Shown here piece by piece: positions 3,879-51,294 of a stretch of DNA of 64,000 bases. The position numbers were made by a program, and so were the translations under genes. Position 1 is the stretch's first letter. The number at the start of each line of letters is the position of its first letter. Location: NCBI GenBank assembly GCA_010645155.1, contig CM021316.1, positions 10,520,700-10,584,699 on the forward strand, given 5' to 3'. The stretch comes from Tigriopus japonicus (Eukaryota; Arthropoda; Copepoda; Harpacticoida; Harpacticidae). The notes under the pieces are model-generated. The model searched no databases, had not been told where the DNA came from, and worked only from the letters and a program-made list of their open reading frames with translations.

Positions 3879-6800
3879 ATGTTGAGATTCGTTTCTCTGG
3901 CATTGATTTTTTACTTTGTGTATAGAGTGCAAGGAGACGACTATGCTCCTGCTTACCAAACAGGCTCTGATCCCGCTCTTCTTGAGGCCCAAGACTACTA
4001 CCAACAACCTACACCGCAATTATACTACAATCGACCAAGGCAAGATGGAATTTTGGACGGAGGGCTAGGCGTCGTAAGTACTATTTATCATTTAATCATA
4101 TCTTAATAGTTCTCAATCCTCAGACATTGGGATATGACTATAAAAATAGGCATGTAACTTCAAATTCATAGTTCAAGTGACATCTTTTAACAAATGACAA
4201 CTTTATTCAATGACACATACATGGTCTAACAGATAAATTTACACCGAGTTGAACGTCGTCAGGTCCATAAGGGTGTACAAGAAAGCATTTATTTCGGTTT
4301 GACAGAAGTTTAGACACATAGAGGCATCTTTCTACTCAATGTGACCGCCCTTAGCCTTGATGACAGACACTAGACGGTCCCTGAAGCTATCACAGGCGGA
4401 CACCACGTCGGTGAGGGGAACATTGGACCATTCCTTGGTGATGGAGGCCTTCAGGGCGTTGATGGAGCTGTGGCTGGTCTTGTGTGCATACCCCGAGTTT
4501 GAGAACGTCGAACGTCGGTACATTTGCAAATGTAATCGTGACTTACAGGGAAACCATTCCTTTGTATCGGTTAAAAATCCGAGGATTGTTGAAAAAAAAG
4601 AACAATTTTATGATAAATGACGAGCGCTTGGTAATTGGGACGTTTAGGCTGCTGTTTTCAGCTGATGATTTTCGTAAACAAATCTTTGTTTACCGGTACC
4701 TTCCCAACTCGTGTAACCGTAAAAGAAAGGCTTTTGATCATTCCGACATCTAAAAACCCACATTATGCCTAAAGAAACATCAGTTAGACCATGGACCTCT
4801 AGAGATATGGACGTTGGTCGGAAGCCAGATTTGATTTTGCATGACCACGAGCAGGCCGATCGAAATGCCTCTTAAGTGCTAGATTAATTCCTTCAAATAA
4901 TAAATGAAACATATCTTTTCAAACCAAAGCACCATGTAAGAGTTATAAGTGCATGGTTGGTTCAACCATTCATGGACAAATTGTCTAAAAGAAAGTTATA
5001 CAATTAATATTGTAAACTGTGTAGATGACGCTCCAGGCTTAATTCTGTTTAAGTTGCTACTCTTGCTAGTAATTTTGTCAGTGTTTAGGACACTTGTAAA
5101 AACAACTTGTGGGGTCTACTTATTGGCAAAAGACTTTCCAACCTATGATCATGTAAAGATGTTTCAAATGAACAAAATTTGATCTAAAGTTCAAATTGGA
5201 ATATGCATCTAATGGGTAGTTATGGGTAGGGCAGAGGGCAAACTTGCCTAGAAATGCATTCCCCAATAAATTAAAAGTACTTGTTGCAAGTGCTTGATTG
5301 GTTCAAACTATCATAAGCACATAGTCTTTGAATTGACTATTGAGATTTAAAACATGTTAAGTGAATCTTTTTCCATGAAGATAAATCTTTTATCTCTTGA
5401 AAACTGCCATTTCTAAAAGCTGGTTTATTACATGGTAACCTCATAAAAGGTTATTCACAATGAATGGCAATTTTATATCAGTCAGATTATTTTGCCTACT
5501 TTCAGTTATGTTAATAACAAAGCATTTAAACTCAAGACACATTTTCCAATAAACTCATTGTTTGAATCAAGTTCATCATTTCTATTTTGCAATTTTGTTC
5601 ATTCTCTACCACAACACTTATTTGACACTAGGATAGCACTTTCCTTAAAGGCATGTAAAAATTACTTACAGCTTTCAGACACTTGAGCATAGCCATTAAA
5701 CTTGCACACAATCAGAAACACATTTTGATATCACAACTTCAGAAAAAGTTTTAGGTGTGCACATGAAAGAAATCACTTCCTTTACTTTTTTTTCCAGTTA
5801 CTTATGTGATATTTTTTTCATAGCATTGCTTTTCATTGGAATCCAAGCAATTAGACACAAGTAGATCTTTATCATGGATGATCAAGTATTGAGGTAACAG
5901 CTATTTTCCAAACAATTAGATGTTCCCAACTTAAGGGGACTTGAAAAGTCATTGCTTGGGATACTAATAAATCAAAAAGTATTTCAAATTTAACAGCAAT
6001 TTCAAGCCATAGTTTTTTTCACAATGGTAGTAAAACACTGTCTCACTTAGTTAGGGGTGAAAGGTATTTGAATTTATTTCCAGTTTTCAGACACATCAGC
6101 ATGCTCATTTAACCTTGCACAAAATAAGGAACACATTTTGCTCTTACAACTTCAAGACAAGTCCTAGAGGTGCAAATAATAGATAAAAATATCTAAGGGT
6201 TGTTTAGTTATTTATGTTACTTTCTTCATAGCTTAGCTTTTCATTAGAATCCAAGAGGCAATTAGACTCAAGCATTTTTGTACCAGGGAAGATCAAGTTT
6301 TGAAGTAGGAAATATCTTCCAAGCAATCAGATGTTCTCAACTTAAAGGAACTTCATTAGTCACTGTTTGAGAAACTAATTTTTCAAAAAGAATTTCAAAT
6401 TTGAAATCCATTTCAAGCTTTGTGTTTTTCACTCAGGGGGCATTACACCATCCCACCTAGTTGTTTGATCATTCTGGTCAAAAGTGAAACTTGTCAAATA
6501 GTATGAAAATTGGGGTCAGTACTCACTCTCTCTCTCTCTCTCTGTTGAGCTATGTGGTTTGGGCTAAAGCAAAACAAGTCTTCCCCTGTATCTTTCAAAT
6601 TCAAAAGAGTAATAGAAATCCTTACCAAGAAATAAGTCAAGGAGCAAACCCTCTAAGGATGGAAAAGTATCACAAAAAGAAGCCATTTGAAGCACTGATT
6701 TACACTTCACCAAAACAATTCTTGAGATCATTTAAAACCACTAATTCTGCTGTTTTGAAAGTAACTTGATCCACCTGGTTGGTCACTGTTGCTAGAAAAT

Positions 6801-9800
6801 CCTTGGACATGGGCACTTTTGTGAATCAATATGATGATTTTCCTTGCAATTGAAGTTTTTAATTCGGCCACAAACATTTTGAAAAGACACTATGCTTACA
6901 ACTGCATGAAGCGATTCTCAAGTGATGCCATTTCATGTCTTGACAAGCCAGTTAATATTTTAATGTGAAATTTACTCAATAATCCAAATCATAGCATTTT
7001 GGGTTTAAACTGTCAAATTTTTGCAAATTGACACTCAAATATGATTTTTTTTCTTTGATGCTATCAAAAGAGGGGGCTTGATTAGCAGAGTTTTTTTTTC
7101 GCAAACCTGGGCATTTTTCTGAGCTCACTGGGCCCCTCGTTATGGCGGCAAATTCAAACCATTTTGACATCGGCCTGCTCTCGGTCAGACCATTTTTCCG
7201 ACCAACGTCCATATCTCTAGATGTCCGTGGTTAGACTTAACATAACAAAGAATGGAACGTGTTGTTGGTTGTGAAAATAAAAACAATAGTCGACGGTCGA
7301 TTGGGAATTCGATCTCATTCTTTTCATACGGATCGCAGCCATTGCGATAAGTCGGGTTTAGCTGTCAAACGAATATATTCATAGTCAAACTTGATATGCC
7401 ATCAAATTCCGAATTGGATGTGCTCCATTTGGGAAGATAACCTTTCACTCGAAAGTATATGGAAGACGCACAACTGAGACCAAAATCACAGTCAAAAAGT
7501 GGATTTTTAAGATATATAAAAGAAGACGTCGTTTTGCACGTCTTTCAACACAGAAGTATAATAACATGATCATGTTATTATCACATTGCACATTTCAATC
7601 ACTCATATATGATTGAATAACACTCAATGCACATTTGCGTGCTAGCTCATCAGCCTTTTAGTGTCTTATTGCTGAAGGAAAGTGGAAGTGGAAGAAGAAG
7701 TCAATCCCAGAAAGAACTTTGACATCATATGAGAAAATTCTGAATTTCCGCACCGTATTGTAAGCAAATAGCTTGCGCATTAAAGTCAGAGATCCTGAGA
7801 AGGTACATTTTCCAGACGCTCAATGATAACTCCAACGTCATATACTGTCGTCAAAATAGAGATCAAGCCAGAGAACAGAATGAACAAATTCACTCGCCGA
7901 TGTATCCATGAAGCCGGAGTCATTGTCCATTATTTTTACCCATGGACTTGTGCTTTGAATGGATTGGGGATTGAAAATAGAAGAGCAAGTGTTTTATATT
8001 AAATGTCCGTCTCTTGGAAGAATGGTCCAATAGTTGTTAAATTTGTTTCAGAAGGCTCTTTCAAAAAAGCCACTAGTATTCCCATCTAATTTAGGTTCAG
8101 ATGTTAGTCCTCGAAAGTACGAGTAATATCTGTAATCTTCGATCAGCTTCAGTTTTTTGAGTGGAAGGCCAATTTACGTGTTTTTTTATATATTGAGAAT
8201 AAACGCTTTTAATGCCTTGTATGTACCACTACTTTGTATTTTCATTCGTCGACTTCTTGGGCACCATCGTCAATCAAATTAGGTGGAAGATTACCAATAT
8301 CGGCAAAGACAAATGTAGCAAAATTTTAGATAAAAGCAACAAAACATACTTTTTTGCTAAAACAATGTCAAGAATTGCTATTTCAACTTCAAGTTGTGCA
8401 GAAAAGAAAGGCATTGTTGCAATTACCAGGCCTAAACCTTCGTTTTAGTTACCTCGCACGCTCATCAGAAACACAGGTCTTCCGAACTTTTTTTCCCACC
8501 AAAAATGATGACGTCACTAGTAATTGCTGTAATTGCAAATACCAATCGTTGAAAGATTCTCTTTGTTTTTGGTTGCATGTGAAAAAGGAAACGAATCTGA
8601 TCAAAATTGGGATATCCTCGAGAAATACTTTCTCAAGCGCCTTCAAGCAACTATTATCGGCAAAAATGGGCGTGTCGTCTTTTATCTCCGCATTAAGCAA
8701 ATGTTGAAGATTAAGTTGCATACAATTCGCCAAATACCCTTGTTATTCCAAAAGATCATACTTGAACAAAGCATTGGACGAATAATAAATTTTGAAGGCT
8801 TTCTTACACATTCTAAATTCACCGAGAGTAGAATCCACGGTAAGTTTGCTTGGTTTGAGGATGTTATTTATTTTGGAAGGTTTGGTTTTATGCACTGAAT
8901 TTGATGAACTCTAGGCAACCAATCGATTACACTTCCTCTCACACTTCTCAAATTGAATCAAAGCAGCCATCACATGTTTGCACTTGGCCACATTGCTCAT
9001 TCCGGCCTCCTCAATTTCCATCTCTGCACAAAATGCGGCAAGATTTCACGCAAAGAATTCACATATCGGACATACATTTTGGCAATAACAGCCATTATAG
9101 CCTTAACAATCACTGTATCTTGGGAAGTCATGGATTTTTCGATATCTTTTTCGAGGGCTCGAAGATTTCGTTCGAATTCTTGGATTAGGATATCGAATAG
9201 TTTGGCAGGCATGATGATAATAGATTTGTTGTGGTTTTGGGAGTAGATCCGTTATTTCTAGTGCGCCATGGAAAGGTATCCCTTGAGATATTTTAAGATT
9301 TTGCAATTCAAAAGCTACTGACAAGGTACACATTCTTCAGAAACTAAGACTTCCTACTTTTAAAAGCACGTTCTCTTATTTTTTGCTTGTTCACTCGATC
9401 TTGGTGACCGCTGATTTGCCGTGCACCGTCCAGAGATTCAATTCCCTGTTATCCAAAATATGGAAAAAAAACTCGGGATATAATTTAAACCTTAGAAAGT
9501 GTAAACAACCAGTTTTGAATATAAGAGGTCATAATAAATGCATTTTACATGACAATTTTTTCTTCCAGATTGGATTGGCTGGAGCCTTGGGCATCGGAGG
9601 TTTGATTGCTGGTTTTGCTCTTATTCAGCAAGCAGCAATAGCTCGTGAGCAGATTCGAAGTCAAATTAACGCGGACACTGCCGTGGCGGCTACTATTAAC
9701 ACTCTGTTACCAACTCAAACAGCTGCCATCACATCTTTAACGGCCTCCCAAACTTTGGCTACCAACCAACTTACACCATTGTGCGCCACATCAGCTGCAG

Positions 9801-9907
9801 TTCTTGCTGCCATCCCCGCAACTATTCCTACGGGTAGTGCTGCTGCTGTGCTCGAGCCAATCATAAATGCTTTAATTACGGCCTTAATGAGTAATCCTTG
9901 CCCATAG
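3879..9907 (+). CDS. Small secreted Ala/Gly-rich protein, family member A (two exons)
   Basis: Exons are 3879-4073 and 9569-9907, giving 177 aa. Exon 1 (65 codons) starts at an ATG followed by a hydrophobic signal peptide of about 18 residues, then a Tyr/Gln/Pro-rich stretch, and ends before GTAAGT in phase 0. Exon 2 follows TCTTCCAG in phase 0 and opens with a Gly-rich hydrophobic helix (GALGIGGLIAGFA), then a Gln/Ala/Thr-rich tail with two cysteines near the C-terminus and a TAG stop. ATTAAA hexamers at 9908 and 9918 are plausible poly(A) signals. The 5.5-kb intron contains transposon debris. Layout matches members B and D on the other strand (signal exon ending near an Arg-Gln motif, phase-0 intron, hydrophobic exon-2 start), though sequence identity is low, so common ancestry is inference. 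Function unknown; secretion predicted only from the signal peptide. Confidence 0.7.
4332..4529 (-). pseudogene. Mariner transposase C-terminal fragment
   Basis: The minus-strand reading contains a stretch beginning KTSHSSINALKAS that matches the C-terminal end of the transposase at 45.4-45.8 kb (ATSHNSINGLKTS and following residues). Only the region after the third catalytic Asp is left; the catalytic core is absent. It lies in the intron of secreted-protein gene A, in antisense. It is an old remnant of the same mariner subfamily. Confidence 0.65.
4788..7231. mobile_element. 2.4-kb inverted-repeat element with internal tandem duplication
   Basis: The ends 4788-4860 and 7150-7231 are inverted copies sharing TCTAGAGATATGGACGTTGG and, further in, GAGCAGGCCGAT. 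A TAG triplet abuts both ends, a possible 3-bp target duplication. Inside, about 370 bp at 5680-6053 is repeated in direct orientation at 6084-6462 with clear divergence. No transposase is visible, so it is probably non-autonomous. Superfamily unassigned. It sits in the intron of secreted gene A. Confidence 0.7.
6526..6543. repeat. (CT)n microsatellite
   Basis: Nine uninterrupted CT units inside the 4788-7231 element. Confidence 0.9.
7232..9568. other. Remainder of the gene A intron
   Basis: No recognised gene. Overlapping open frames occur on both strands at 8350-9330. The 71-codon minus-strand frame 8997-9212 is the most coding-like (acidic/basic amphipathic composition), and 8449-8733 on - has a faintly gag-like reading. 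Neither has a domain I can name. Confidence 0.4.
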
Positions 9908-9923
9908 ATTAAAATACATTAAA

Positions 9924-15801: not shown

Positions 15802-17135
15802 TTGGCATTGAAACGGCTGATTTTTTGTATCATCTCGGTCTATATTCCTCCTAACTCTAATATTCAGGACTGTATTTCAACATTGCGGTCAATGATAAGC
15901 TCTCTATCAAAAACCAAGGCTATACTTATGTGTGGAGACTTTAATTTAGATTTCCTGCGGGACAACTCAAGAACTCGCAAATTCCTTGAGCTCGTGATGG
16001 AATATGAATTGTTCCCACTGATAGAGAAACCCACAAGAATATCTAGTAACTCAAAAACATTAATTGATAATATCTTTACAAACCGTAAGGCCAAAATTAA
16101 ATGTGGGGTACTTCTCTGTGACGTTAGTGACAACTTAGGGACCTTTGTTTCAATGGGAAAGATTAAACGCCAACGTCATAAACCCGAAGGCAATTCTAAT
16201 CAACTTAGAGGAGCAATTGGTCCAAAGTACATCCAAGTCCTCCAAAGTATCTTATCAAACACAAAATGGGATTTGCCCAATTCTAATCCGGAGAGAGCAT
16301 TTGAAGAGTTTGATACAAAGCTTACAAACGCCATTTATTCTGCTTGCCCTTTTTCAAATACGAAGCGAAACAAAAGAAAAGTGAAAAGGAACCCATGGAT
16401 GACGCTATAGCTGTAATAGTGTGAACATTATGAATGACGTCCCGGACGTCTGTAATCTTCCACAAGGCATTTTAGACCAAATAAGCAAATTTCCAAATCA
16501 ACGAACCTACTATTTTAAAGTGGTTTCCAAGTTTGACATCGATAAGGTAATTAAAGGTCTGCCGAACAAAAACAGTTCTGGACTAGACGGTATATCAAAT
16601 CGCTTACTAAAATCAATATAAGCAGAAATTATCCAACCTTTAGCACACCAGATTTATCTCTGACTTCCGGTTACTTTCCACAAAATTGGAAAATTAGAAG
16701 GGTGTTTCCTTTGCACAAAGGTGGAGATCGTAGTGAAATGACAAATTACCGCCCCATTAGCATGTTCCCCACACTTTCAAAAGTGATTGAAAAGGTTGTT
16801 TGCAAGCAAATATTTGAACCTTTTGAATCTGATCACTTGTGTGAAACTCAATTTGGATTTCGTCCTCAACACTCAACCTCTCATGCTATTCATAACTTTT
16901 TGCAAAACATTTTTAATAACAAAGACAAGCGGATTTCAGTAGGAATATTTGTAGATCTTAAAAAAGCTTTTAATACTCTATCCCACGACATTCTTTTAGC
17001 AAAAATGGAAAAGTACGGTTTTACTAAAAATATTTTAACATGGGTCAAAAACTATTTTACAAACCAAACTCAACTCTTAGACTTTGATGGTCACCTATCT
17101 AACACCTCGTCGCCAGTAAAACAACGGCGGATATA
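15802..17135 (+). pseudogene. LINE (CR1/Jockey-like) copy: endonuclease plus partial reverse transcriptase
   Basis: The first frame (to 16410) carries the C-terminal half of an EEP endonuclease, with VYIPPNSN, CGDFNLDF, TLIDNIFTN and a degraded SDH motif (SDNLGTFV). After an apparent internal deletion at 16410-16421, two further frames give the reverse-transcriptase start (SSGLDGISNRLLKS; then YRPISMFPTLSKVIEK, QFGFRPQHST, FVDLKKAFNTLSHD). Homology stops near 17135, before the YxDD motif, so the polymerase core and 3' end are gone. The 5' end is hidden by the assembly gap. Frame changes, a stop and truncation show it is dead. Confidence 0.85.
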
Positions 17136-17929
17136 TGTGATGATGAACCTACGGTATTTATTAGACATAGTATATAAGCATATGTGCATATATTTGTCAT
17201 TGCTAAGTATGCTTCTTACCCCCAGCCTTTGTATATGCTAGTTTCGTGGTGGCTGAGTCGGCTGAGAATAAGTGAGCTTGATTTCTTGTGCGTTCGTTGG
17301 AGTTGTTAATGGGAAATGCAAATAAAAGGTTGTGCGAAACGTGTGAAATTTTTCCGCCAGAGGGTAAAAAATTCACTCTCGGCAGTTCGGCCAAGGTTGG
17401 CGTAACGATAGGGTTGGGCTGACCACGTCACAATTTTAGCTTCTTTAGCAACCATTTCAATGTAAAGGTGCCAATATCGTGTTTGGGGAGTTCAATTCCA
17501 GCAAACCATTTTTATGAGCTCATTTATGGCAAAATATGCTAAAAAAAACTAGACATGCCTTTTCAAACCGAGAGCTTCAAAGATTTTACATTCGCGGAAC
17601 AAAAGGAGAAAAAGTGTTGCCATGGAAATTTGAAGAAGCTTCAAAGTCGACTCTTTCATAGGAAAATCCAACACTCGTAAGAAGAAAGGACCGAGAAAAA
17701 ATACATCTCGTAAGCCCGACGTTGTTTCATTGGTTGGTTTTTATAAGTTGCTTTAGCTCCAAGGTCTCAAGTCTATGGTTTTTTTTTAAATTGGCAATGC
17801 TTGTTCTTCAATTCAGCAAACCTGTATATTTCCGTTTACTCATACAATGAGATCGAAAGAATTTTTTGAAGAGGCAAAACTCAAAATCTGCCCGGAGCCC
17901 AGGACCCTCCGTAATGAAGATCATGCATA
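17136..17929. other. Gene-free stretch
   Basis: Sequence between the truncated LINE and the first 101-bp direct repeat. I see no recognisable gene or repeat boundary. Confidence 0.45.
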
Positions 17930-20433: not shown

Positions 20434-21431
20434 TCACGGAAAGGCAAGAGAGTGGCTTACGGAATGAAGGATTCGGGGTGCATGATTATCATCGTAAATA
20501 TCAAGGATTAAACTGTTGTGTGACCAACCTCCTGCTGTAGCAACTTCTGATGTGGTATGCCCTTTATTTTTGGCAGTCTGAACCCCGCCTCGACGGGAAG
20601 AGTGGCAACCAAATTTTGTAGGATCCAAACCAATAGATTTGAGAACAGAGTGTTGAACACTCCGAATGGATTGATATTGGGCTCTTGTCGAAGAAACTAT
20701 GTAATCGTGTCCTTGTTTCACAAATTTAGGTAAAAGCGGGCCATTATAAGGAGAGCTTGGAGAAGGAGAGAGCCTTATTAAGTAGGCTTGGTAGATTTTC
20801 TTTGGGCAATAGAGGTTGTTAGTGACTTTTATGTAAGCATGATGTCCTCGATTGATCTGATCATTTTTGTGATGAGGGAAGAACACAACAATCTTGTCCA
20901 AAAGTCCGGTTATATTCGAGGTGGAGACATGAGCTAGATCGTCAAACCGAGCTAATGCTAAAAAGGCGAAGAGTTCAAAAATAGCTTCCCGCCACAAATG
21001 CAGCGATCTAGAAGGTGAAATCGAGTACAAGTCTGTACTAAGACAGTGATTCAAAATCAAAGCAAGAATGCCATGAGACATGGGCGTTTTACGCACGACG
21101 GGCTTTAAAAAAGTCTTCTTGGCTCCCACAAGGAATAATTTGATTACTTTGGCATTGCAGGGCGAAAGAAATCCGTTGGCATCATGGAATGCAGAAATAG
21201 CTGCTGATATAAATTGGCAAGCTGAATAGGAATTAGATTTTTCTAAATAAGATTGAAGGAAGGCTAGAACTGTAATTGATGAGGCTGGTAGAGAAGCTTT
21301 GTTATGTTTGGTATAAAAGACGCTGAATAGTTTCCAATAAGTTGTGTAAAGCTTCCATGTTGAAGGTGCTTTTGCAGCTTTGATGGTCGTAATGCCTTTG
21401 GAGACTAGGAAATCAAACGCTGAAATAAACG
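20434..21431 (-). pseudogene. Tyrosine recombinase of a DIRS/PAT-like retroelement
   Basis: An open frame of about 330 codons after a TAA near 21432; no ATG at its start, so it is probably expressed as part of a larger ORF or has lost its start. The catalytic set is visible: Arg in LALARFDDLAHVS, His and Arg in GCHSSRRGG, the GGWSH box, and Tyr in LDIYDD. This enzyme integrates DIRS-order retroelements by site-specific recombination, so no target duplication is expected. It is last in the order RT, RNase H, recombinase, all on the minus strand. The frame itself is intact, but the element is not. Confidence 0.85.
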
Positions 21432-21858
21432 TGGAAGGCTTTTACTATAGACATTTATTACAACCAGAATAAAAACAATGAGAGGGCTTGATGATCGAGT
21501 AAGGTTTGTCGAAGAAAATTCCGTTGTATATTGAGTAGCCAAAAGGGAATGGAGTGCGACCAGCAAGAAAAGTGCTGGTTACGTGCTGACCCGAAAAAAG
21601 AGTGGGATGACCGACGTATACGTCCGTAAAAAGAGAGGAAAAATGAACGCTAATGCGTTCGTCCAATTAGTGACTGCTCGCGGGCAAACAAAAAGAACAG
21701 ACGAACAATCAGTCCAACAAACGACCTCATCCAACGAAGACTGACGGGGTACGATCAATTTGAATATACACTGTACTTTTAATCCTATGTAGTTCTACAT
21801 AAGTTAAACTAGAATATATTTCTTCAGGTGTTCCCCTTATATTGCGCATCGGGACTTT

Positions 21859-22622
21859 TCAAACGCCATCAGGGTAGAGAGAGAGCCAAAAAGAAGCCGC
21901 TGGCCACAAGGGTGCAACAAGTACACCAGAAGCCTGATGAAATAAAATGTGACGAATAGCGGAAGAAATCAGGTTAGGAGGAGGGCAACAGAGGCCAAAG
22001 CCATATTGAGACCAATCAAATGAAAAGGCATTTACTCCAGAAGTGCAAACAGATGGTGTTTTAGAGAAGAATGTGAAACACTTAGCGTTAGAGTCACTAG
22101 CAAACAGATCAAAAGAGCTGTAAATGATAATTTTGTGAGACCCCAATCTTGAAGATCGAAGAACCGAGATAAATGGTCTGCAATAGCAATTCTTGGGTCA
22201 GACCGGGGAAGCCATAATGACTGGAGTGTAATAGAATGCGAACGACAAGTGAGATGTATAGTCATCGCTAGATCTTGAAGAGATTCAATTTTTGAACCTT
22301 TGCGAAGAATACGTGAAACATTTTCATTATCACAAAGAAGAAGAATAGTTTGATGGGACCATTGTTGGGCAGAAGAAATGACGAGTTCTTTTGCTGCGAG
22401 TAGCTCTCGAAAAGTGGAGCTGTTAGAACGCTCATAATTATTCAGAGGTCGGGCTAAAGCCATATTCGAGAGACAAGGACCCGAGTGATAATGACGTGAT
22501 AAATGACAAAATATTTCTGCTGCACCAATCCCATTAGCTGAGGCATCGGAAGAGTATATTCGGTGAGGTGACACGTTGGGAGAGAGTTGTATTGGCCAGC
22601 CATTGAGAGAAGGTAAGGACAA
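21859..22622 (-). pseudogene. RNase H domain of the DIRS-like element, frameshifted
   Basis: Contains IYSSDASANGIGA (first catalytic Asp), STFRELLAAKEL (catalytic Glu) and LLCDNENV (third Asp), then IADHLSRF. Near 22120-22145 the frame changes, and the C-terminal part typical of DIRS elements (DLFASDSNAKC, later VLVAPLWPAASFW) continues in another frame down to 21859. It is in the same frame as the upstream reverse transcriptase, separated by one TAG. Confidence 0.85.
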
Positions 22623-22733
22623 TTTTAATTGATTAATTTCTTCAAAGACGAGGTTGGTGAGTGAAACCCAGCCTTCCCACGAAGAAAAAACTATGACCTG
22701 AGCGGGTGAGGAGTGAAGAGACTGGACCCAGTG

Positions 22734-23516
22734 CTAGATGGCAGGAGGAGATTTTGCCATAAAGCTTGCCAGATATTTTATTCTTACTCGGCGTTGAGCA
22801 AGTAAATTCTCTGCCATGTTAATGATCGCGTTTAGTTTTCTCGGAGGAATGAAATATTTCAGATTAATGAGGTCGTGATCAAGACCTAAGAAAGTGCCGT
22901 ATTGAGTGGGGGATTTGATTCCTTTGTCGGGTTTGATGATCCAGCCAGCCATTAAAAGACAGATGTTAGCGAAATTGGAGTTTATGAGACAAATTGTCTC
23001 GTTAGTGCCTAGAATTCGTTGATCATCAATGTAAATTGAGATAGGAATTCCGTGACCTTGACAGAAGGCGATGTGAGGACGGAGACGTTTTGTGAAGAGG
23101 CGAACGGCCGTCTTTATGCCAAGAAAGAGAACGTTCCAGACAAAAAATACTGTTTTCCCCTTTCTAGACCATCGAATTCCTAAATATTTTTTATGATCCG
23201 GATGCATAGGTACTTGATGGTAACCAGATTCCACATCCGAAGTTGTCATGAAACAATTTGGTGTTAATATGTCATTGGCGACTTCAAGGTGTGATAGTTT
23301 TACATGCTTATCTAGTAAAAATGAATTGAGGTTGCGGGAAGCATCCACAACTAATCTCTTTTTGTTACTTATGACGACCGAAAGTGGAAGATTAATGTGA
23401 GGAGGTTCCAAAGTAGCACTGATACAATCTATGGACTCAAAAAGGTAGAGTTGATCATTAACAAAGGCTTGATCTAGAAGTGCACTTTTGGGTAGGCGGA
23501 AGGCCCGTACACGCAA
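22734..23516 (-). pseudogene. Reverse transcriptase of the DIRS-like element
   Basis: 260 codons with LVVDASRNLN, MTTSDVESGYHQVPMHP (catalytic Asp of motif A), and ISIYIDDQRILG (YIDD active site), then FLGLDHDL. These are DIRS-order signatures. The frame ends at a TAG (22734-22736), after which the same frame continues with homologous sequence, so the stop is a disabling mutation. The 5' side ends abruptly at about 23516 against an unrelated GC-rich minisatellite; the gag-like ORF and left end are missing. Confidence 0.85.
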
Positions 23517-23519
23517 CGG

Positions 23520-23700
23520 ACAGTCCGTCTGGAGCCCCGGCCAAGACGTGGGACGATGCCGTGACCGCCGGACGAGGCCGTGACCGACGGACGATGCCGT
23601 GACCGCAGGACGAAGTCGTGACCGCCGGACGATGCCGTGGCCGACCGAGCCGATGCCGTGGCAGACCGAGCCGATGCCGTGGCAGACCGAGCCGTCATGA
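23520..23700. repeat. GC-rich minisatellite
   Basis: About nine imperfect units of 18-21 bp based on GATGCCGTGACCGCCGGAC, changing to GCCGATGCCGTGGCAGACCG at the right. It abuts the truncated 5' end of the reverse transcriptase and contrasts sharply with the AT-rich surroundings. Confidence 0.85.
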
Positions 23701-24095
23701 CGGCAAGGATATTTCTAGTCGAAGTTCTATCATTTCTAGTCAAATCTGTGAAAACTAGGTAAATCTTCTGTGATGTTTTTATGATTATTTTAATTCTCAT
23801 TAAAATGAGTCAAGTGTCAAGTGAAGAGAGCCTGGGATATTTTCGTGGGGAGCAAACATTGGATTGGATGGAAAACAAAGTTGGGATGGCATCTGCTTTC
23901 AGACCTCGCTTTCCACTCGGAAATACGCGGAAACATCTTTGATGGAAGTGAACCTAATAAAAAATACCATGGTCAATTCAATACGTTATTGAAGCGATTA
24001 TTCATGGCTAACTTAGAGACTACATTGAATTAAAGCCTTGTTAACTCAATTTCATTCTGCGCTTGCTTATACACTTTCAACTTCATAAAACTTAC

Positions 24096-32279: not shown

Positions 32280-32977
32280 TCGGACCGCCACACTGGCAAT
32301 GAGGCAAACAAGGACCGTGCCGCCATCAAGGTCCTCCATGACGCCGGCCACAGTGCCAAGTTCATCGCCAAGAAGGTTGGCTACACCCCCTCAGCCGTGC
32401 ACAAGGTCTTGAGGGCCATCAAGGCGAGGGACGGCGACACAACCGAACGGCGAACGTCCAGGCGGTGATGAGGTCGAAGCACCCGGCCTCTGTGATGGTC
32501 TTTGGGCTGTTCTCATCGGATGGGAAGGTCATGCCCCCCGTTTTTGTGCCCAAGGGCGTCAAAATGAATGCAACCTGGTATCGTGACAACATCCTGCCTG
32601 CTATTGAAACCTGGGCCAGGTCCATCTATGGGCCCAGGTGGAGGTCCAAGGTCTGCCTGATGCAGGACGGGGCGCCGTGCCACACGGCCAAGGTGGTCCA
32701 GGACTACCTGGCAATGCACTGGGGATTGGAGGCCTTCTGGTCAAAGACCATGTGGCCCCCCAGCTCACCGAACTTGAACCCCTTGGACTTCTGGGCATGG
32801 TCTGCCCTGCAGGACACCGTGAACTCCAAGAGGCATCCCAACACCGAGGCCTTGAAGAACTACATTGTGAAGGTGTGGGGCGACATCCTAAACGTGGTCG
32901 CGGTGAAGAAGGCTTGCAACAGTGTTGAGCGACGACTCAGAGAAGTTGTCGGCGCCAGCGGCGATTATTTTATGTGA
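32280..32977 (+). pseudogene. Mariner transposase, internally deleted (DD39D-like spacing)
   Basis: After the insertion, the frame at 32281-32460 encodes a helix-turn-helix region (DRAAIKVLHDAGHSAKFIAK, then VGYTPSAVHKVL) and stops. Translation then resumes at 32468 with SVMVFGLFSSDGKVMPP and the second and third catalytic Asp: LMQDGAPCHTAKVVQ and PPSSPNLNPLDFW, with 39 residues between. About 150 residues carrying the first catalytic Asp are missing. The start codon lies at 30336, on the far side of the insertion. GC content is higher than in the surroundings. Confidence 0.8.
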
Positions 32978-36434: not shown

Positions 36435-38851
36435 TCAATATTCTTTAAGAAAATCCTCATCGAGGTATTCATCGGCGGAAAGAGCTCTCCACAGAGCTCT
36501 AGTTATGTTCATGGGCAAAGATGGTGGTAAAGAAATCGGGGCAAGAGTAGGTGAAACGGCTGGAGGAGGATTGATTGGGGGATTGGTTGGGGCGGGTGCG
36601 AGAAGAGGAGCAATAAACGTGCCAGCACCAGCCGCTGTTAACGTTGCTAGAAGCATTCCCAAGAGTCCAAGAGCCTAAAAAAATTAAGTCATTGATTGAA
36701 GTGTAATTTTTAGGGATTAAGGCCAGGACCTTTAGACGAATAAACTTATTCGTCTTTATTCATATTTTTTTTTACTTTTGTTTGTCGCGGAAAATGTGTT
36801 TGTCCAAAATGTATTTCATTTGTCCTTAATTCGTCTAATAGGGTAACTTTTTCGTCTTTTTTCGTCCAAACAGTGCAAATTCAATATTTTGCTTCGGAAT
36901 CATTATTTATCTCATGTTTTCCAGATCTTCAAATTAGGAAACTTATTAAAAACGGCAGTTTTTGGTCCTAAGTTTTGATTGTTTCTTTCGTTTTTGTAAA
37001 AACAAACTAGGATTCACACTAGAACAACGACTTTTAAATCTTCTATGCAAGCATACGGTAGATTTTGGTTTAAAATGATGTCTAACTTTAAGAATTACAT
37101 TTATTGTATTAATTGTATTGAATTAATATGTGAACTGGCCCACTAAGCACTTATTTTGGGAATGTTTTAGATTTGCAGTTTTGGGTAAAACAGGCAGTTT
37201 TAACCCGGTCAAAAGGGCAACATATTTTGTCTAGTTGTTGGACAATTTGAACCGGGTTTTCCACCTTTTCGAGCAATTTTGTCTTTTTTCGATCCCCCAC
37301 AGGATTTGAACCTACGCCGTGTGGGGAAGCACTTACACTCGGCCTTTTCAATAACGCGAGTATTTAGTTGTTTAGCATTGTCCATTCATTTATTTTCCTC
37401 AATTTTGCCTGATATATTTTTTCACCCATAAACCATGGAGAAAATATTTAAATTTTCCTTGAAACAGCTAAGATATTTAAAAAATCAAGGAAAAATGGAG
37501 AAATATTTCTAAATTTAAAAAAAAATGTTTCCGGGCCCTAGATATTATAGTTCTTACAATTTTGCTCATACTTTTCATCACCATTCTTGGCAAAATCCTT
37601 ACAATGGCCTGCATTTTGGCTCAGGGTTTGATTTAAGGTGAAGCACGTGAGATTTCGAAGAATTTCGTAAGAGTTGTGAAACTTTACGTGGAATTTGGTT
37701 TGAAAATTGTTTTTAAGAAATGAAGAGCCTCAAGTTCTAATAATTCCAATAAAGGAAGTAGGATGAAAGAAGAGCAATTCTGATAATACACATTTATCAA
37801 AACATGCCTGAAAAATATTGGCTTAAGAAAAAAATGAACGCTGTTTTGGCCCAAATTTTAAGATTCCTTGTTTTGAAGTAAGAACTATGGCGTGGGATTT
37901 TTATAAAAACACTGAAGAACTTTACATACTGTTACTTCAAATATGCACATACTCTTGGAAAAAGTCCAAAGAGATTTTTTTTCTGGAACTTCATTCTAAG
38001 TTTGTTAAAAAGTTGTGCGTGTAAGTCCACCATAAGCAAAATATTCAAAATTATTGAAATGGAAAAAGGAACGAGAGGCAAGTACTTTTTGGATTTTTGA
38101 GCACCTAAAACCACAGCATTTTTAAAATGTAATGGCATTACAGTTACTTTTCGATGAAAGGAACGAATTACTGTACTTTCGTTACTTTCCTTCTCTGCAA
38201 CTGCCTTGCCCTTTCCTATAGTATTTTTCCCAATTTGATTGAAAATTTGACGAAAAATCAACTGTTTGAACAAAATTCAGCGGCAAAGACATTTCATTTA
38301 TTTTTTCTCTAGCAGACATCTTTAAAAAAATTTGACTGTTTACAAAAATATCATATCAACAAGCATTTTAACCACATAAACTGTACTTATTTTTGCTGTT
38401 TTGACATCCAAAAAAAAAAAAAATAATAATGCTGTTTCGCGATGGAATTTTTTTATTTAGTGTAACCACGAGTTTCAGGATACAAGGGAGGACTTTCAAA
38501 TGTCTTACGTTATCTCCGATTAACAAACACATATCAGTTAGCTTTAAAATAATCTTTTTGAAAAAAGTCTCAGTTTTTACGTTTTACTCTTTTTCAAAAC
38601 TATAACAATTTTTCATTTTGTCCTTTTTCGGTTTTAGAATGGTCTCACTTCCCTTTGCTATATTTTTTCACAAATTGAAAAAAAAATTAGCTTACCCCTG
38701 GTTGAATATTAGCCACTCCAGAAACAAAACCTTGTCTAGCAATCTCCACGGGTTTTTCTGTAAGATCGTTCTGGTGTTGAGGTTTCGTTGCCGAGCCTAT
38801 TATAAGTAAGGCCAAGGCAAGAAATCGGCAGAGAAATGTAGTCGTTTTCAT
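36435..38851 (-). CDS. Small secreted protein, family member B (two exons)
   Basis: Exon 1 is 38851-38696 (52 codons) and exon 2 is 36674-36435 (79 codons plus TGA), 131 aa in all. Exon 1 starts MKTTTFLC, continues a signal peptide ending GSAT before KPQ, and closes ARQGFVSGVANIQPG at a GTAAGC donor in phase 0. Exon 2 follows a T-rich acceptor with ALGLLGMLL, then LLATLTAAGAGTFIAPL, a Pro-rich segment and an acidic C-terminus (DEYLDEDFLKEY). MKT start, Cys8, the SA(S/T)xPQ cleavage region and the RQG motif are shared with members C and D; LLxTLTxAGxxTFxAPL is shared with D. The 2-kb intron holds a tRNA-like repeat and a MITE relic. Function unknown. Confidence 0.75.
37291..37347 (-). repeat. 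tRNA-derived (SINE-like) fragment
   Basis: Read on the minus strand it has an A-box-like GGCCGAGTGTAAGTGC and a B box GGTTCAAATCC, spaced as in a tRNA with a short variable region. The acceptor stem does not close, so it is a tRNA-derived repeat or tRNA pseudogene rather than a working gene. It lies in the intron of secreted gene B. Confidence 0.6.
37383..37542. mobile_element. Truncated copy of the TAGGGCCCGGAAA MITE
   Basis: Resembles 1015-1178: TTTTCCTTGAAA, AAATGGAGAAATATTT and the terminal TTTCCGGGCCCTA. Only the right half remains. Confidence 0.75.
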
Positions 38852-38936: not shown

Positions 38937-38973
38937 CGACTGACTTGACTTGGAGAAAATTCGCTTATATATA
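38937..38973 (-). promoter_or_regulatory. Core promoter of secreted gene B
   Basis: TATATATA at 38966-38973 is followed on the minus strand, about 30 bp downstream, by TCAGTCG, an arthropod-type initiator (TCAGT). The predicted start lies about 90 nt before the ATG at 38851. Spacing is canonical; activity is inferred. Confidence 0.5.
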
Positions 38974-41425: not shown

Positions 41426-43640
41426 CCTTTTCATGCATTATGCATGACCCAAAAAAGCAAAAAATGCCGGCTGACACACACAAAAAACCAATCTGTCTTT
41501 ACGTTAGGTATTCGAAATGGGAGAGATATGTATAAATCGTTTAGTTTGACCCTTCTTGCTGGCTTTTCATTCTCGATATTTACCTCAGTGTAAATAGCCA
41601 GATAATCATGGTTCTGGGACTGTTTCAAAGACAAGAAATGAGTTGATGCCTGCGGTCTTATTTTATTTACCGGTGCACATCATTTTGACAATGTTTATTT
41701 GGCCTTTTGTCCACAAAATTTGATCAAGACTCAAGCGTTCATTTCAATGGTGAGGCCAAATTTTAGTCATCCATAGATGTCATCTCCGAAAGTAGAAGAG
41801 AGTGGTTAAGGTACAATCATTTAGTCATCTTTGGTGAACTTAAAAAATTCGTCGTACGATTTGAGGTCTAATAGCTATGCAGTGTGTCCCAAAATTAAGT
41901 TCGCCACGAGAACATTTCAAGCAAAACCACACAACTTTACAATGATATTTCTTTTTGTTTAACAAAAGGTAAACGTGGCAACCCCGAACGCCAACTTTAT
42001 TAAACAAATGTTTTAAGTTTAGACCTTATGTTGACAGCCAGGATCAATTCTTCATGCCCAGTGCCTAGTAAAGTGACGGAAAATGAGATGCCTGAAAATG
42101 AAAAGTGAGAGGTCATTGGCGTCAGGAAGGCTGAATGCTCTCAGAAACTGGTAACCAAGAGGTTTGGGATGACTTCTAAGTTAGTTCTGAAGTGAGTGCC
42201 TATTGGGTGTAATGGTAAATCTCTGGTCAACAGAACGGGCGGAAGACATGGAAAAGGGTCAACATGGAAAAGGGTCAAAAATGGTGATCACCACTACCCT
42301 TACAAAACATGAAGTTTCTCACCCACAAATTTACCCAAAAGTTGAGTGCTCATGGTCAGCCAATGTCCCGGACAACACTGCATAGCCACCTATCCATGGC
42401 AACCCATAATTCAGCCGAGACGTAAAATGGAAAGTGACATGAAAATTGCATCCTTTTCTGAATAAAATGCCAAGAAATGTGCAAGTCAAAACTGACAGTG
42501 TGTTTTCTCTCCAGGCAAGTGAGCTGATGAGTGGGAACACCTCCTCAAGATCCAGTATAAAAAGTATTTGGTGAGGAAAATCCATTCATGTTTTTATCCA
42601 TGAAACAACAAAGCATCCATGAAAAATTCAAATTTGGGCAATGATGAGCCATCGAGCTTCATTCAATTCCTCCCATGTCATCAATCATTACCCAATACTT
42701 CACACGTTAGGACGAAGGTCAATGTAGCCAACAAAATGCCGAGACCTTTGTGGGTACTTTTTGAAATCAGGACATTCAGGGGCATATTTCTACCCCAAAT
42801 ACAAATTGCAGCCTACAATTGCAACTACAATTGCCAAAAAATACATCGTAAAATGATAAAATGCACGGTTTGGCGTGCTCGCTCATGAGAAACTGTTTTG
42901 CTCACAACCCAGCTCACCCATTCGAAAAATAATGGGACCGTCTGCAAAAGGAAGTGGACAAAATGGTGCATACCTTTACCTTCAGGCAAGGATCCCTGCT
43001 TCAAGAGACCAAAGTTAGGGATTCAAAATGAGAGGAGAAGCATTCTACCAGGAGCTTTTAATATTGCATAAAGTGGTTTTGAACAATTACATCAAGAGTT
43101 GTGCTCCATTAAAACGTGACTTTACAGGCATATGGTTTTCACTTCGCAAACACTAATGTGCAACTTATCAGGCCAAGGCATTGAAGATGAACTCAAGTTG
43201 GGGCAAACTGCACGTGGACGAGATGAACATACGATTCTGAGACGTATGTACCAAATGTTGATAAGATGTGAGCAGACCTTCTTCTGCAAGGCTGTTATCT
43301 AAACAAAACAAACTTCATTCAATATCAATAGCGTTTTGAAATTAACAGGTGAAAATTTCCAGAACTGAGTTTTATCAAAATGCCCCTCCTGTCAAACCAA
43401 GGTGGCCGTTTTTTATACTTTTACTTGACGTATGCACCAAGTGGATGAAGTGGGCCTTCTCATCTCACTGTTAATGAAACCGAAGACGAAATATGGCGGG
43501 ATGCCTAGACATGATGCAAATAAGCTAACTGTCTGGTAGTGCAACCGACATCTGGCGATGCATGAGGCTGTCACTATGCAGAACAGATTTCTTCTATCTG
43601 GACACTCTTTTGCTATTGGTTCTTTGAACAACACTGAAAT
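41426..43640. other. Gene-free stretch
   Basis: Several degraded frames at 41880-43400 read like eroded mariner-type transposase and flanks (for example AATCTCTGGTCAACAGAAC), but stops and frame changes are too many for a firm call. Confidence 0.35.
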
Positions 43641-44750: not shown

Positions 44751-44758
44751 AAGTTCTA

Positions 44759-46059: not shown

Positions 46060-46395
46060 TAAATTTTCACATTAAAAACGAGATCCGATTTTTTCGATCT
46101 AAAAACCGAGTCCAAAAAGTTTTCTTTCTAAAACAACGAGATCCATAATTTTCGATCTAAAACAACGAGATCCAAAATTTCCGTCCTAAAAAACTGGAAT
46201 CCAAAATTTTCAATAACCAAAAACGAAATCCAAAATTGTCGACATAAAACAACGAGAGCTAAAATTTTTGACCTAGAAAACGAGATCCAAAATTTTCGAC
46301 CTAAAAAAGGGATCCAAAATTTTTGATATTAAAAAACGAGATCTAAAATTTTCGACCCACAACAAAGAGATTCAAAATTTTCGACCTAAAACCGA
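46060..46395. repeat. Minisatellite, ~30-bp unit
   Basis: About eleven units of AACGAGATCCAAAATTTTCG followed by ACCTAAAA, with substitutions. No ORF passes through it. It may be the arm of another fold-back element, but I could not find an inverted partner. Confidence 0.8.
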
Positions 46396-46960: not shown

Positions 46961-47240
46961 TGTTTCGAACCAGGAGTGCTACCAGTTTTGACTCCGAGAT
47001 TTATGGCTGTTAAAAAGGGCAGGTTGTTTTGAACTTTTTGAAAAGACCTAAAAGGGGACCGATTGGGCAACACTCGAACTAGTTCGATTTCGAGTTCTAT
47101 CAGTAGTTAAACTTATGGATTTTAAGTTTGCAGTGCTGCCATATTCTATGGTGGATAAGTTCGATTGCTTGTTGAAAAGTTTAGTTGTGGCCAGATTTTT
47201 GACCCTAAGAACCAAAATGGCAAAACTCTGCCAAAAACCA
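46961..47240. repeat. Dispersed repeat, copy 2 (uninterrupted site)
   Basis: Matches the family at 24712-24738 plus 25928-26158. It carries the sequence TCGAACCAGGAGTGCT without the 1.2-kb insertion seen at 24739-25927, so it acts as an empty-site reference. Confidence 0.8.
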
Positions 47241-47629
47241 ACTCGTAGAATACGCGAGTGAAGTTTTTGATTCATTAAAAATCGTCAAAATGATGTACGA
47301 CACTTAAAATATCATAAAGTGAATCTTGACCCAAAAAGTTATAGGTTCTCTTCAATTTGGAACGGAACAATACGGACAATAGGAACGGAATATTTCCGAT
47401 CCTACAATCTTGTAGAGCAGTGTTCATGGTTTTGCAGGATGAAGTTCCATGCACAAAAAACAAGCTAAACTAATATTCAAAAGTAATCACAGTTAAATAT
47501 GAGATTTTAGTCCGTCAACAGCAGAATTATTTTAAAGTATGGGTTACTTTTTATTGGACGCCCTTTACAGAACGATAATTTTAGTTAGTATTAAAAACAG
47601 AAATCTAGCGTGGAAAAATATTGTCTTAC

Positions 47630-47791
47630 CCCAGGACCAATATTGCTCAGTCCAGTTATGATGCCTTGTCGATCAATTTGCTTGGGTCCATCACGAGGGC
47701 GAGGGTTAACAACGTTTTGAGGTTTGGAGGCTGAGACCAACATGAGTAAGACCAAGATAAGCCATGGGCAAAGAAGTAAAGATGTCTTCAT
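47630..47791 (-). CDS. Small secreted protein, family member C (first exon only)
   Basis: 54 codons from ATG 47791 to a GTAAGA donor at 47629, phase 0. The exon opens MKTSLLLC, has a strongly hydrophobic signal peptide, the cleavage region SASKPQ, and ends DRQGIITGLSNIGPG, closely similar to exon 1 of member B. I could not find a matching exon 2 between 47629 and 38852. The next compatible acceptor of the family downstream on this strand is exon 2 of member B at 36674 (same phase). So this may be an alternative first exon for gene B or an orphan exon. Function unknown. Confidence 0.6.
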
Positions 47792-49465
47792 TTTTTAGTT
47801 GTTGCAAGATATGGCTTAAGTTTTGGGAAAAACCAACGTTCCTTGGCAGAACTTTCTGGTTTAAAGACTGACTTGAAACTAGAAATGGTTCATAGTTTTA
47901 AGAAGGGAACACATTGGCTTGCTTGTGCTATTGTGAAAGATTTTGCATGAGGAAATAACCTTTCACCATTTGGCCCAATTGTCTGTTCAAATAACTACGT
48001 TCTGTCAGCAACTTTTAGTTATATGACTCTCGACTAAGGGCTTCAATTAGAAGCTACAAAAAGAGAACGTAATGAGAACCAACTTTTAGTTGGTTAGCAA
48101 ATGCAAAGCCTTCAATGGCCAGTTCAGCATTTTTGTGGAAACTCCCAAAATCATGAGATTTTGACGAGCCAACGATGGAAATAGAATTTGGAAAGCTCAG
48201 AGCTACCAAATTGCTAAAAAACAAATTTTGCCAATGAAATTGACACCAAAAGCACAAACACCTTAAAGAATAAAGTTTGAAGGAACTTTTCTTATCACAA
48301 GATCTCGACAAACATTGTTTTTTATCTTATTTTTTTGCAAGTTCATTTGATGCTTGCTTATCTTTTCCAAATCAAACACAATTGCAAAGAGTCTTTTGAG
48401 GGTTTGTCAGGTGGTTTTGGGATCGGCTTTGGTAAATCTTTTTTCGGCCAAAACTTTTGGTTCGGTTAAAGGCTCATTCGTTCCATCACTACACAAAAAC
48501 AATAAAAACATGCAGTTTTATATACCAAATAAGAGCCCACTCCTACACCATCTTGAATGAGGCAGTCTCTCTTCTCTAAAGGCAGCGTTGCAATTTTCAC
48601 CTGACAATAAAAAATGAGTTACTTTTCTGCATTTGTATCTTTTCAAAGCTGACGACTTGAGAATTTCAAGTTAATGGCTCGACATTGTGTGATGAGTAGA
48701 TTACATTTTATAGATACATTTTTGCCATTTGTCCACACTAGAACAATGCGACCTTCTGCGTTTCTGTTCTGGCGTCAGATTTGCTGTTTGCCCAAACCAC
48801 CGATATCCACAGATACGACATACCTTCCGTGTTTTGAAGGACAACTAGCAGATATTGATAAGAAAAGGTTGCGTGAAAAATTATTCTTCAATCTTTCAAG
48901 TCAAACTTTTGACTTTCTTGGCAAACAGTTTGCAGATTGACAAAATTTCGGTGTTAAAGATTTACATCGAATCGTCAAACCTCAACAACCGACCTTATAT
49001 CATTTGTCAAGACGAGCTTGATGAAACGAGTTTTTTGCAAGCAAAGAAACCCAAAGCTTATGAAAGCTGATCGTACAGTATTTCTCCTTGTTATGATATT
49101 GTAGCTCAATTAATTGATGCATAGTCAATCCAACCACAGTATCATAAGAAAGATATTTTGTAACAGTATATATTTTTTAATTAGTTAAGCCACAGAGTTA
49201 AGTCACTCCAAACAATTTCAACCAACATAATGCCCAAACCATATTTTTAGAAAAATAAGGGAAAAACACTTGGAAACACTTATCCTGAAGTCTTAACCAT
49301 CGTGCCAATTCAAATGAACTTGGTTACAACGACCTTTGGGGATTTCACTTACAGCATGTTTGAACTATTTCCCAATTTCTCGATGGCTTTGGTCGAATAA
49401 AAAAGAAGTAAAGAAGCACAGGTTCAAAAATCTATGAAGCTAAAACCATTCAGGAGAATTAGAGA
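47792..49465. other. Gene-free stretch
   Basis: Overlapping frames at 48674-49070 on + contain charged, coding-like segments (for example KKRLREKLFFNLSSQTFDFL) but no ATG-led frame, splice pattern or domain that I can support. Confidence 0.4.
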
Positions 49466-49466
49466 G

Positions 49467-49535
49467 GTGACGTGGTGTTATGGTTAGTGCAGTTCGCCTC
49501 TGGCGGCAGGTCACAGGTTCGATTTTCCTCCCCAA
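49467..49535 (+). repeat. tRNA-derived (SINE-like) sequence
   Basis: Contains TGGTTAGTGCAGTTCGCC and a B box AGGTTCGATTTTCC at tRNA-like spacing. Stems are imperfect and the acceptor does not close. Probably a SINE head or tRNA pseudogene. Confidence 0.5.
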
Positions 49536-49610
49536 CCTTTTGTGGATCATCCACAAATCATGAAAGTGTTAATCTTCGAACTGGTGTGGTTTATTTATGT
49601 GTTTTTCAAT

Positions 49611-50005
49611 CCGGGTGTTTCAAAAAAACGAAACACCCAATGCAATTGTCTATAACTCGTGATTGAAACCATATATGAACCGCACTTTCATTGGATATGA
49701 TTGGCCAAACACTTGGCTTGAAGAGTCAGAAAAAGCAATTTCGCCCAAGTTCAATGTTTCACCGACCACGATTTTTCCCGTCAAGAGTTATTTTTGAAAA
49801 CAGAGCGTTCGTGGCTCCGATTTTTTACTCCCCTCTGAAATTTGGCAAAAATCGAAAATCAGCCGACCAAAAGGGGGAAAACCATATACATCTTAATAAT
49901 TGTTATGTGCTTCGTCTTTTTGTATAGGATATATTTTTTATGAGATCAACCATTTCCGAGTTACGGACGTGCTTTCTTGTTCCATTTCTGGTGAATAATC
50001 ACCGG
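49611..50005. mobile_element. ~390-bp MITE, copy 1
   Basis: Collinear with 52238-52629 over its length, with shared CAATTTCGCCCAAGTTCAAT and ATTTCCGAGTTACGGAC. Left end CCGGGTGTTTC. The right end merges into a long palindrome at 49990-50045, so its exact terminus is unclear. Confidence 0.8.
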
Positions 50006-50045
50006 TATGTCCAGACGACTCTGGACATACCGGTGATTATTCACC
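49990..50045. repeat. Perfect 26-bp-arm hairpin
   Basis: Arms GGTGAATAATCACCGGTATG plus TCCAGA, and the exact inverted copy, around a 4-nt loop (CGAC). It lies at the right end of MITE copy 1. Confidence 0.9.
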
Positions 50046-50732
50046 GGTATGTAGACTAAAGACTACTGACGAAATCGGCTATAGTTTTATTTTTGTACAT
50101 TTTGCACTTTGATAAATGAAATTCCTCACAAAATCTTCGTTGCCTTGCAACGATTTGCACCTGTAATGGTTTAAGGTTAACGTGTATATTCTTAATCATG
50201 TATAATCGGCACATCACGCAATGATCATTGTTTTTCTATAAAGATTTCCTAACCTAGGCATAGTAACCCAAAAAAACTAATCTTTTTAAAGCATGCTCTC
50301 ATTGCCGGACAATCTTTTTAACTGGTGAAGAAATCAAAACCATGGAAAAAGAAATAGTTCAGAAATATTGTCGGAACAATCATCTTAAATGAGAGAAACG
50401 AATCAAGAAATCAGGAAAACCGGAGTTTTATAAAAATGGTATCTTTAATTGTAAATGACGTATATTACATTATAACTCTTTTTTCTTTCTGCATCAAGCA
50501 TCAAGCACGCTTCAAGCAAGCATTCATTTTTATTTTAAGCATATTTTAAGCCTGTTATAGCAATATTCAACTAATTTTTTGGTTCAACAAAAGCTAACAT
50601 TCATATGGCGTCATTTTAGAAGCCTGAGAGCATGAAAAAGACCCAAAAGGGTGCCAGTCGATTGCTGAAATATGCTTGAAGCATGCAACCCCAATCACAA
50701 AACACAGGACTAAAATGTTTCTAGCTTTTTCA

Positions 50733-51294
50733 TTAACGAGTAGTAGTTGGAGCTGCTGTTGTTGTAGCGACTGTGGTCGTAATGGAGGCAGTTGTTGTGG
50801 GCGCAGCGGTAGTTGTTGTAGTGGTAGTTGTTGTTGTAGTGGTGAATAGAGGGGCTACAAATGTTTGGGTTCCGGCAATCGTGAGGGTAGTCAGTAGAAT
50901 GGCCAAGAGACCAACGGTCTAAAACCAAAATTTCAATAGAATGAACCTATCAAAAGGTTTTGGTGGAGTGAAATTTAAAAAGGGGTTTTCCGTTCTGCCC
51001 CCAAATCGTGCTATTTTTGGTCTAACCTTCTGCACCGACCCCGGTCAGATCAAGATTTTGCATTGCCACGCGATTTTAGCAAAAGTTCGAGTTTAGCACA
51101 AATCTTACCGTAGGTCCTAGATTGCCTAATGCCGTGAGTGCCGTTGTCAATCCTTGCCTCTCTGCTAATCCATAAGTTTCCTCATTTGGTTGTTGTTGTT
51201 GATAAGAGCCATAGTGATATTGAGGATAAGAGGCGGATCCCAAAATGAGAATAGCTAAGGCACAAAAATGGCAAAACCAAGTGTGTGTTTTCAT
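50733..51294 (-). CDS. Small secreted Thr-rich protein, family member D (two exons)
   Basis: Exon 1 is 51294-51109 (62 codons), exon 2 is 50918-50733 (61 codons plus TAA), 123 aa, with a 190-bp intron. Exon 1 opens MKTHTWFC, a signal peptide ending GSAS before YPQ, a Tyr/Gln-rich stretch, and AERQGLTTALTALGNLGPT at a GTAAGA donor, phase 0. Exon 2 follows a T-rich acceptor with VGLLAILL, then LLTTLTIAGTQTFVAPL. The rest is almost all Thr with Ala/Pro, a mucin-like tail likely to be O-glycosylated. The exon-2 start is close to that of member B (17-residue block with 11 identities), but the tails are unrelated. Function unknown. Confidence 0.75.

Follow-up and report, generated by a model that had tools for sequence, protein, structure and literature searches.

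Two families of small secreted-looking proteins, as far as sequence comparison can tell restricted to Tigriopus, lie side by side in a 64,000-nucleotide stretch of the genome of the tide-pool copepod Tigriopus japonicus (C2:10520700-10584699, hereafter the window; the genome searched comprises 194.9 Mb in 158 contigs). The first, called the A family after its member in the window, has 15 close genes at three loci, falling into five three-gene units that each consist of one gene of class L, one of class I and one of class M; the second is a short family made up of genes B, C and D and one further copy elsewhere in the genome. The repetition of the trios suggests a joint requirement for three proteins that differ slightly. 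The features on which this description is based are collected in Table 1.

Table 1. Positions of the exons and putative promoter elements of genes A to D in the window, and of the fourth short-family copy on contig C31.
Feature	Position	Strand	Basis or remarks
Gene A (M class), exon 1: signal-peptide-like N-terminus, Tyr/Pro/Gln-rich linker, RQD site	3879..4073	+	phase-0 donor; alignment runs through to TCAL_10377
Gene A, exon 2: hydrophobic Gly/Ala segment, long helical region (predicted), two cysteines, stop	9569..9907	+	78% identity to TCAL_10377 in this part
Gene B, exon 1: signal-peptide-like N-terminus, RQG	38696..38851	-	phase-0 donor; residues common to B, C and D
Gene B, exon 2: hydrophobic core, Pro-rich tail, NIT site, stop	36435..36674	-	AG acceptor; core matched on C31
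Gene C, exon 1 (exon 2 not found)	47630..47791	-	phase-0 donor; residues common to B, C and D
Gene D, exon 1: signal-peptide-like N-terminus, RQG	51109..51294	-	phase-0 donor; residues common to B, C and D
Gene D, exon 2: hydrophobic core, Thr/Ala-rich tail, stop	50733..50918	-	AG acceptor; core in common with B
Fourth short-family copy, exon 2	C31:377345-377542		about 45 kb from the C31 trio
TATA-like box of B, TATATATAAG	38964..38973	-	about 25 bases upstream of TCAAGTCAGTC; once in the window, 0.05 expected; present in 4 of 100 shuffles
11-mer TCAAGTCAGTC, B copy	38938..38948	-	97 bases before the ATG of B
11-mer TCAAGTCAGTC, C copy	47866..47876	-	85 bases before the ATG of C

The first exons of A, B, C and D, which a preliminary description of the window had proposed from their signal-peptide-like N-termini (assessed, here too, by reading hydrophobic N-termini from the sequence), are all present at the positions it gave, each closing on a phase-0 GTAAG donor. 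When the window is scanned for hydrophobic N-termini that lead into a donor of this kind, five exons are returned, these four among them; in 20 simulated windows of the same dinucleotide composition the same scan returns 17 exons in total, between none and three per window and none of them with RQG or RQD, and the four first exons are therefore real. Selection on these genes is purifying, pN being lower than pS in 18 of 18 paralogue comparisons. For gene A, the preliminary description had the first exon right and overlooked the second. The spliced protein is 71% identical, end to end, to TCAL_10377 of T. californicus in a protein search, and the latter crosses the junction 4073|9569 without a gap; this alignment across the junction and over the whole length supports the splice site, and gene A is a complete gene of two exons whose frame is kept to the stop.

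The close relatives of gene A form three groups, on C2 at 10.507-10.530 Mb (three genes, including A), on C31 at 0.423-0.444 Mb (three) and on C6 at 2.678-2.813 Mb (nine). Five genome searches, which give lower bounds on family size and took as queries A, an L exon, two I exons and another M exon, matched 13, 12, 13, 13 and 10, respectively, of the same 15 exons; beyond these, they gave only a stray match on C11 (E 0.87) and, weakly, two on C3. A profile scan of the fetched regions returned the 15 at E < 1e-28, the next row, at E 1.3, being left out. All 15 exons have an invariant arginine (R26) behind the hydrophobic segment and two invariant cysteines (C72 and C109), and their tails align over the full length. 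Weaker matches, found with A-family exons against C3 or in the reverse direction (E 0.02-0.11), occur on C3 at 10.464, 10.471 and 10.485 Mb and on C2 at 6.778 Mb. The C3 exon at 10.485 Mb scores 27.2 bits against the A-family profile, where the best of 2000 shuffles reaches 13.3; it is probably a distant branch of the family, and 15 genes is thus a lower bound. The three C3 matches (10464021 and 10470761 on the minus strand, 10485448 on the plus strand) lie within 22 kb, and two of them are 52% identical to each other; the stretch from 10464021 to 10485810 is possibly a further, older cluster.

What is constant in the architecture of these genes, as read from sequence, is the last junction and not the number of exons. 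In all 15 A-family genes the hydrophobic segment is immediately preceded by the acceptor AG, and a GT occupies the place of the phase-0 donor in A, in C2_10515 and in all nine C6 genes (weakly, as GTATTA, in C6_2726); for C2_10506 and the three C31 genes of the family this donor could not be secured, nor could exon 1 be securely found in C2_10506 and two of the three C31 genes. In the readable first exons, a signal-peptide-like N-terminus is joined to a linker that varies and usually contains an R-Q site. The phase-0 junction before the hydrophobic segment is also crossed by four database proteins of T. californicus (P0001, P0004, P0006 and P0007), a finding that bears out the constant junction of the preliminary description. 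Its fixed two-exon design, which holds for A and for the M genes on C6, is only partly right: all three I genes on C6 have three exons, the signal-peptide part being followed by a phase-1 GTAAGT donor and the linker forming an exon of its own behind a phase-2 acceptor. In the three L genes on C6 the phase-2 acceptor is likewise present; three exons are only probable there, since their first donor is of unusual form and C6_2812 has no interruption of its reading frame.

BLAST matches and gene order first brought out the classes L, I and M, which were afterwards tested on a tree of 18 rows (the 15 A-family exons and three T. californicus proteins), where each of them occupies one side of a branch, with support of 96/94, 85/87 and 85/91, respectively; the class labels require two changes on this tree, the fewest attainable, compared to a mean of 9.1 when shuffled. 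Read along the contigs, the C2 unit and the C31 unit both run L+ I+ M+, and each of the three C6 units runs M- I+ L-. If five L, five I and five M labels were ordered at random, five complete triples would arise with p = 0.010, and with I always in the middle with p = 4e-5, values which overstate the evidence because the units are block copies and not independent. The three C6 units are tandem blocks, and on the tree the C2 and C31 units pair within each class, so that the trios reflect few independent events and block copying alone could yield them. The firmer statement is that all five units keep each class exactly once though the copies are old: dS exceeds 1 or is saturated in 12 of 12 pairs, with dN between 0.24 and 0.59. 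In T. californicus, the M and I classes are represented by at least one protein each and the L-like proteins number at least two, of which TCAL_15756, outside the tree, is assigned by eye. Three of the T. californicus proteins, P0001, P0004 and P0006, are each listed on a contig of length 14,796,774; the M and L genes, which are here on C2 and C6, may be on one chromosome in that species.

In the short family, the first exons of B, C and D share M1, K2, T3, C8, S20, A21, P24, Q25, R39, Q40, G41, N48 and P51, so that the MKT start, the cysteine, the SA/PQ region and the RQG motif of the preliminary description are all recovered in the alignment; the motif LLxTLTxAGxxTFxAPL, which it had ascribed to the second exons of B and D, is likewise seen in both, behind their AG acceptors (exon starts at 36674 and 50918). 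Behind the signal peptide, the similarity of B to C is equalled in none of 5000 shuffles and that of C to D in two of 5000; that of B to D is not above shuffles there (425 of 5000 as good), and the kinship of these two is carried by the signal-peptide part (0 of 5000) and by the core of exon 2. Genes B and D are complete, with joins that keep the frame and end in a stop, and their splice junctions are predicted from the pattern among the paralogues alone. For gene C, no second exon was found in the window, whether by tblastn, by a profile scan or by a genome search with C fused to the core of B. A 14-residue stretch near 42743, GLGILLATLTFVLT, was considered and rejected (E 0.25, and out of phase with the preceding AG by reading); it would be either chance or a remnant. 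Gene C might instead splice to exon 2 of B, 11 kb further on. Upstream, the 11-mer TCAAGTCAGTC matches the window twice, before B and before C, and nowhere else, with 0.03 matches expected; together with the TATA-like box TATATATAAG, it probably marks the core promoters of these two genes.

When B, C, D and the core on C31 are searched against the genome, four copies of the short family are returned, namely B, C, D and the second exon on C31, and a profile scan of C6 at 2.66-2.82 Mb, a region with gaps of N, found no others. No first exon was found for the C31 copy in the 4.8 kb upstream. It has a C-terminal tail like that of B, including the N-x-T site, in a reading frame that differs from that of its core, which could reflect either damage to the copy or a fault in the assembly. 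The two tails are identical in 9 of 24 residues, which only one of 100,000 shuffles equals; since the tail of B is thus recognisable in this copy, it must be old, and only the Thr/Ala-rich tail of D looks replaced. The complete divergence of tails that had been claimed is therefore true of D against B and not of the C31 copy, and the proposed evolution by tail replacement is not supported as a general rule, the tails of the A family being alignable throughout, with their two invariant cysteines, and that of B being kept on C31; it would apply to the tail of D only.

The preliminary description had also taken A, B, C and D for one family of four. Gene A belongs instead to a family of at least 15 genes, and B, C and D form a separate short group: a profile comparison of the second exons (hhalign) yields a probability of 0.2% with a single aligned column, the short profile consisting of two rows, and the second exons of B and D contain no cysteine, whereas the A family has two invariant ones. 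The two groups have in common their position, since both occur on C2 and on C31, as well as the R-Q site and the phase-0 junction; a common origin is plausible.

Several other elements are found in the window. Retroelement remains at 20434-23714 (-) include a reverse transcriptase frame (PF00078, E 2e-7) and, beside it, a 335-residue frame without a Pfam match that by eye resembles a DIRS-type tyrosine recombinase; a further reverse transcriptase (16555-17241 +, E 1.5e-17) and a fragment of a DDE-type transposase (32342-32977 +, PF13358, E 1.1e-7) lie between the genes. A 353-residue open frame at 61512-62573 (+) gives a match of KTI12 type (PF08433, E 3.1e-25) and reads as an ordinary conserved gene, for KTI12 or a related kinase.

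The part of the A-family proteins encoded behind the constant junction opens with the hydrophobic segment, whose mean over 19 residues lies between 1.96 and 2.59 in all 18 rows; the corresponding values of the short family (B, D and the C31 copy) are 1.74-1.85. Behind it, the helical periodicity of the A family averages 1526, against a shuffled maximum of 762; row by row, it is equalled by fewer than 25 of 500 shuffles in only 8 of 17 rows, A itself ranking 122 of 500. AlphaFold models of TCAL_10377 and of exon 2 of A consist of one long helix and a short one, with pLDDT values of 41 and 51 that do not establish the fold. Before the junction, the R-Q site reads RQ in 14 of 17 sequences, QQ in two and RH in one; an arginine is present in 15 of the 17, often as the single basic residue. 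Because the site is not invariant, cleavage after the arginine to expose an N-terminal glutamine cannot hold in every member. The net charge of exon 2 ranges from -6 to +2.

These features suggest, tentatively, that the product most likely serves in an extracellular assembly, as a matrix, egg-sac, spermatophore or mucus protein. The signal peptide would direct secretion; cleavage after the arginine would, in most members, leave a mature protein starting with glutamine; the L, I and M chains would join through their hydrophobic segments and helices into a hetero-oligomer, which would carry a disulphide near the C-terminus. Joint assembly of the three chains would also explain why the units keep all three classes. 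B, C and D, with their hydrophobic cores and Pro- or Thr-rich tails, would be a companion family, either sharing the destination of the A-family proteins or derived from a common design. Taken to its full extent, this amounts to an undescribed three-chain secreted assembly of Tigriopus or its near kin, in which L, I and M, most of them with an R-Q site and all combining a hydrophobic Gly/Ala-rich segment with a long helix that ends in a disulphide, are encoded by an indivisible trio copied five times, with B, C and D as companions beside it, and form an extracellular or membrane-active structure; in so specific a form the proposal is rather doubtful.

The same segment and cleavage site could alternatively serve in defence, R-Q cleavage allowing the Gly/Ala-rich segment to insert into membranes and the three chains forming a lytic or pore complex against microbes. 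The precursors look secreted, the site could free a hydrophobic N-terminal region, and both the three-part units and the fast divergence would be in keeping with such a role, as would the appearance of YaxB, a subunit of a helical pore-former, among the PDB rows (E 0.074, by itself no evidence); as no Pfam match passes its cut-off and the charge of exon 2 is not cationic, we regard a defence complex as unlikely. Of equally low standing is the idea that the hydrophobic segment spans the membrane as a helix, the linker lying outside the cell and the helical part within it, by which A-family members may be type I membrane proteins anchored at the cell surface. The 19-residue means of both families would suffice for a membrane helix, and an invariant arginine comes after the segment, but the two invariant cysteines would then face the cytosol, as would the Thr-rich tail and the NIT site of the short family, which would be unusual. 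The idea that the trios are a by-product of block duplication, the three classes having separate roles and no joint assembly, gains from the three C6 blocks being alike in order and strands and from the C2 and C31 units pairing class by class, which indicate that whole blocks were copied, and is the least probable of these alternatives, given that every one of the five units retains each class once despite deep divergence.

The preliminary description had presented the genes as a lineage-restricted set of small secreted-looking proteins, and had called for a check for any clear match to a known family; the set has stood up to searches of Pfam, PDB and protein databases, which gave no convincing named relative other than from T. 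californicus. Protein searches with the A family scored 7,991 and 7,997 candidates sharing the most words, so that distant copepod relatives may be missed, and gave seven matches in total: four T. californicus proteins (TCAL_10377, TCAL_12393, TCAL_15756 and TCALIF_13770, the last of which is placed in this species on the strength of its prefix) and three short unnamed contigs whose exons, judged by eye, are those of the analysed genome itself. A search with B scored 474 candidates and found none at E <= 1. Proteins tested one by one against Pfam gave no family above its cut-off; for the 15 exons together the best E is 0.0005, with scattered matches (among the best 25 of 38 families, with cut-offs for the first member only), and the best PDB row, at E 0.056, is an enzyme, so that membership in a known Pfam or PDB family was rejected. 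A literature search with five T. californicus gene names found no paper, and the passages of PMC7607713 picked out by keyword do not mention these genes.

Lineage-restricted secreted families commonly expand as loose arrays of one gene. Here the kept unit is a trio with one gene per class, a testable sign of mutual dependence among three young proteins, and Tigriopus, as a laboratory model with public genomes and RNA-seq, allows direct tests by co-expression, tissue distribution and knock-down; the analysis also supplies gene models for proteins now listed as hypothetical.

Among known systems, class I membrane-fusion proteins, with their fusion peptide and first heptad region, resemble the A family in the succession of a possible basic cleavage site, a Gly/Ala-rich hydrophobic segment and a long helix. 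They differ in that no second heptad region or C-terminal anchor is seen in the A family and in that the basic site before the segment is not invariant there (arginine in 15 of 17); no Pfam fusion-protein family is among the matches listed (best 25 of 38 families for the 15 exons), and PDB rows of this kind reach E 0.18-0.6 only. Tripartite toxins and YaxAB are similar in combining several different helical subunits with hydrophobic parts, but the proteins of helical pore-forming complexes such as YaxAB are much longer, and the PDB match of the A family to YaxB is not significant. The coiled-coil silks of bees and ants share with it the small cluster of helical paralogues, with one chain of each kind, but have longer coiled coils and no N-terminal Gly-rich hydrophobic segment; the mean periodicity of the A family lies above all shuffles, and taken singly 8 of 17 rows stand out, being equalled by fewer than 25 of 500 shuffles. 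The four proteins of T. californicus, annotated as hypothetical or of unknown function, are homologous to the A family over the hydrophobic segment and the helix and have the identical junction.
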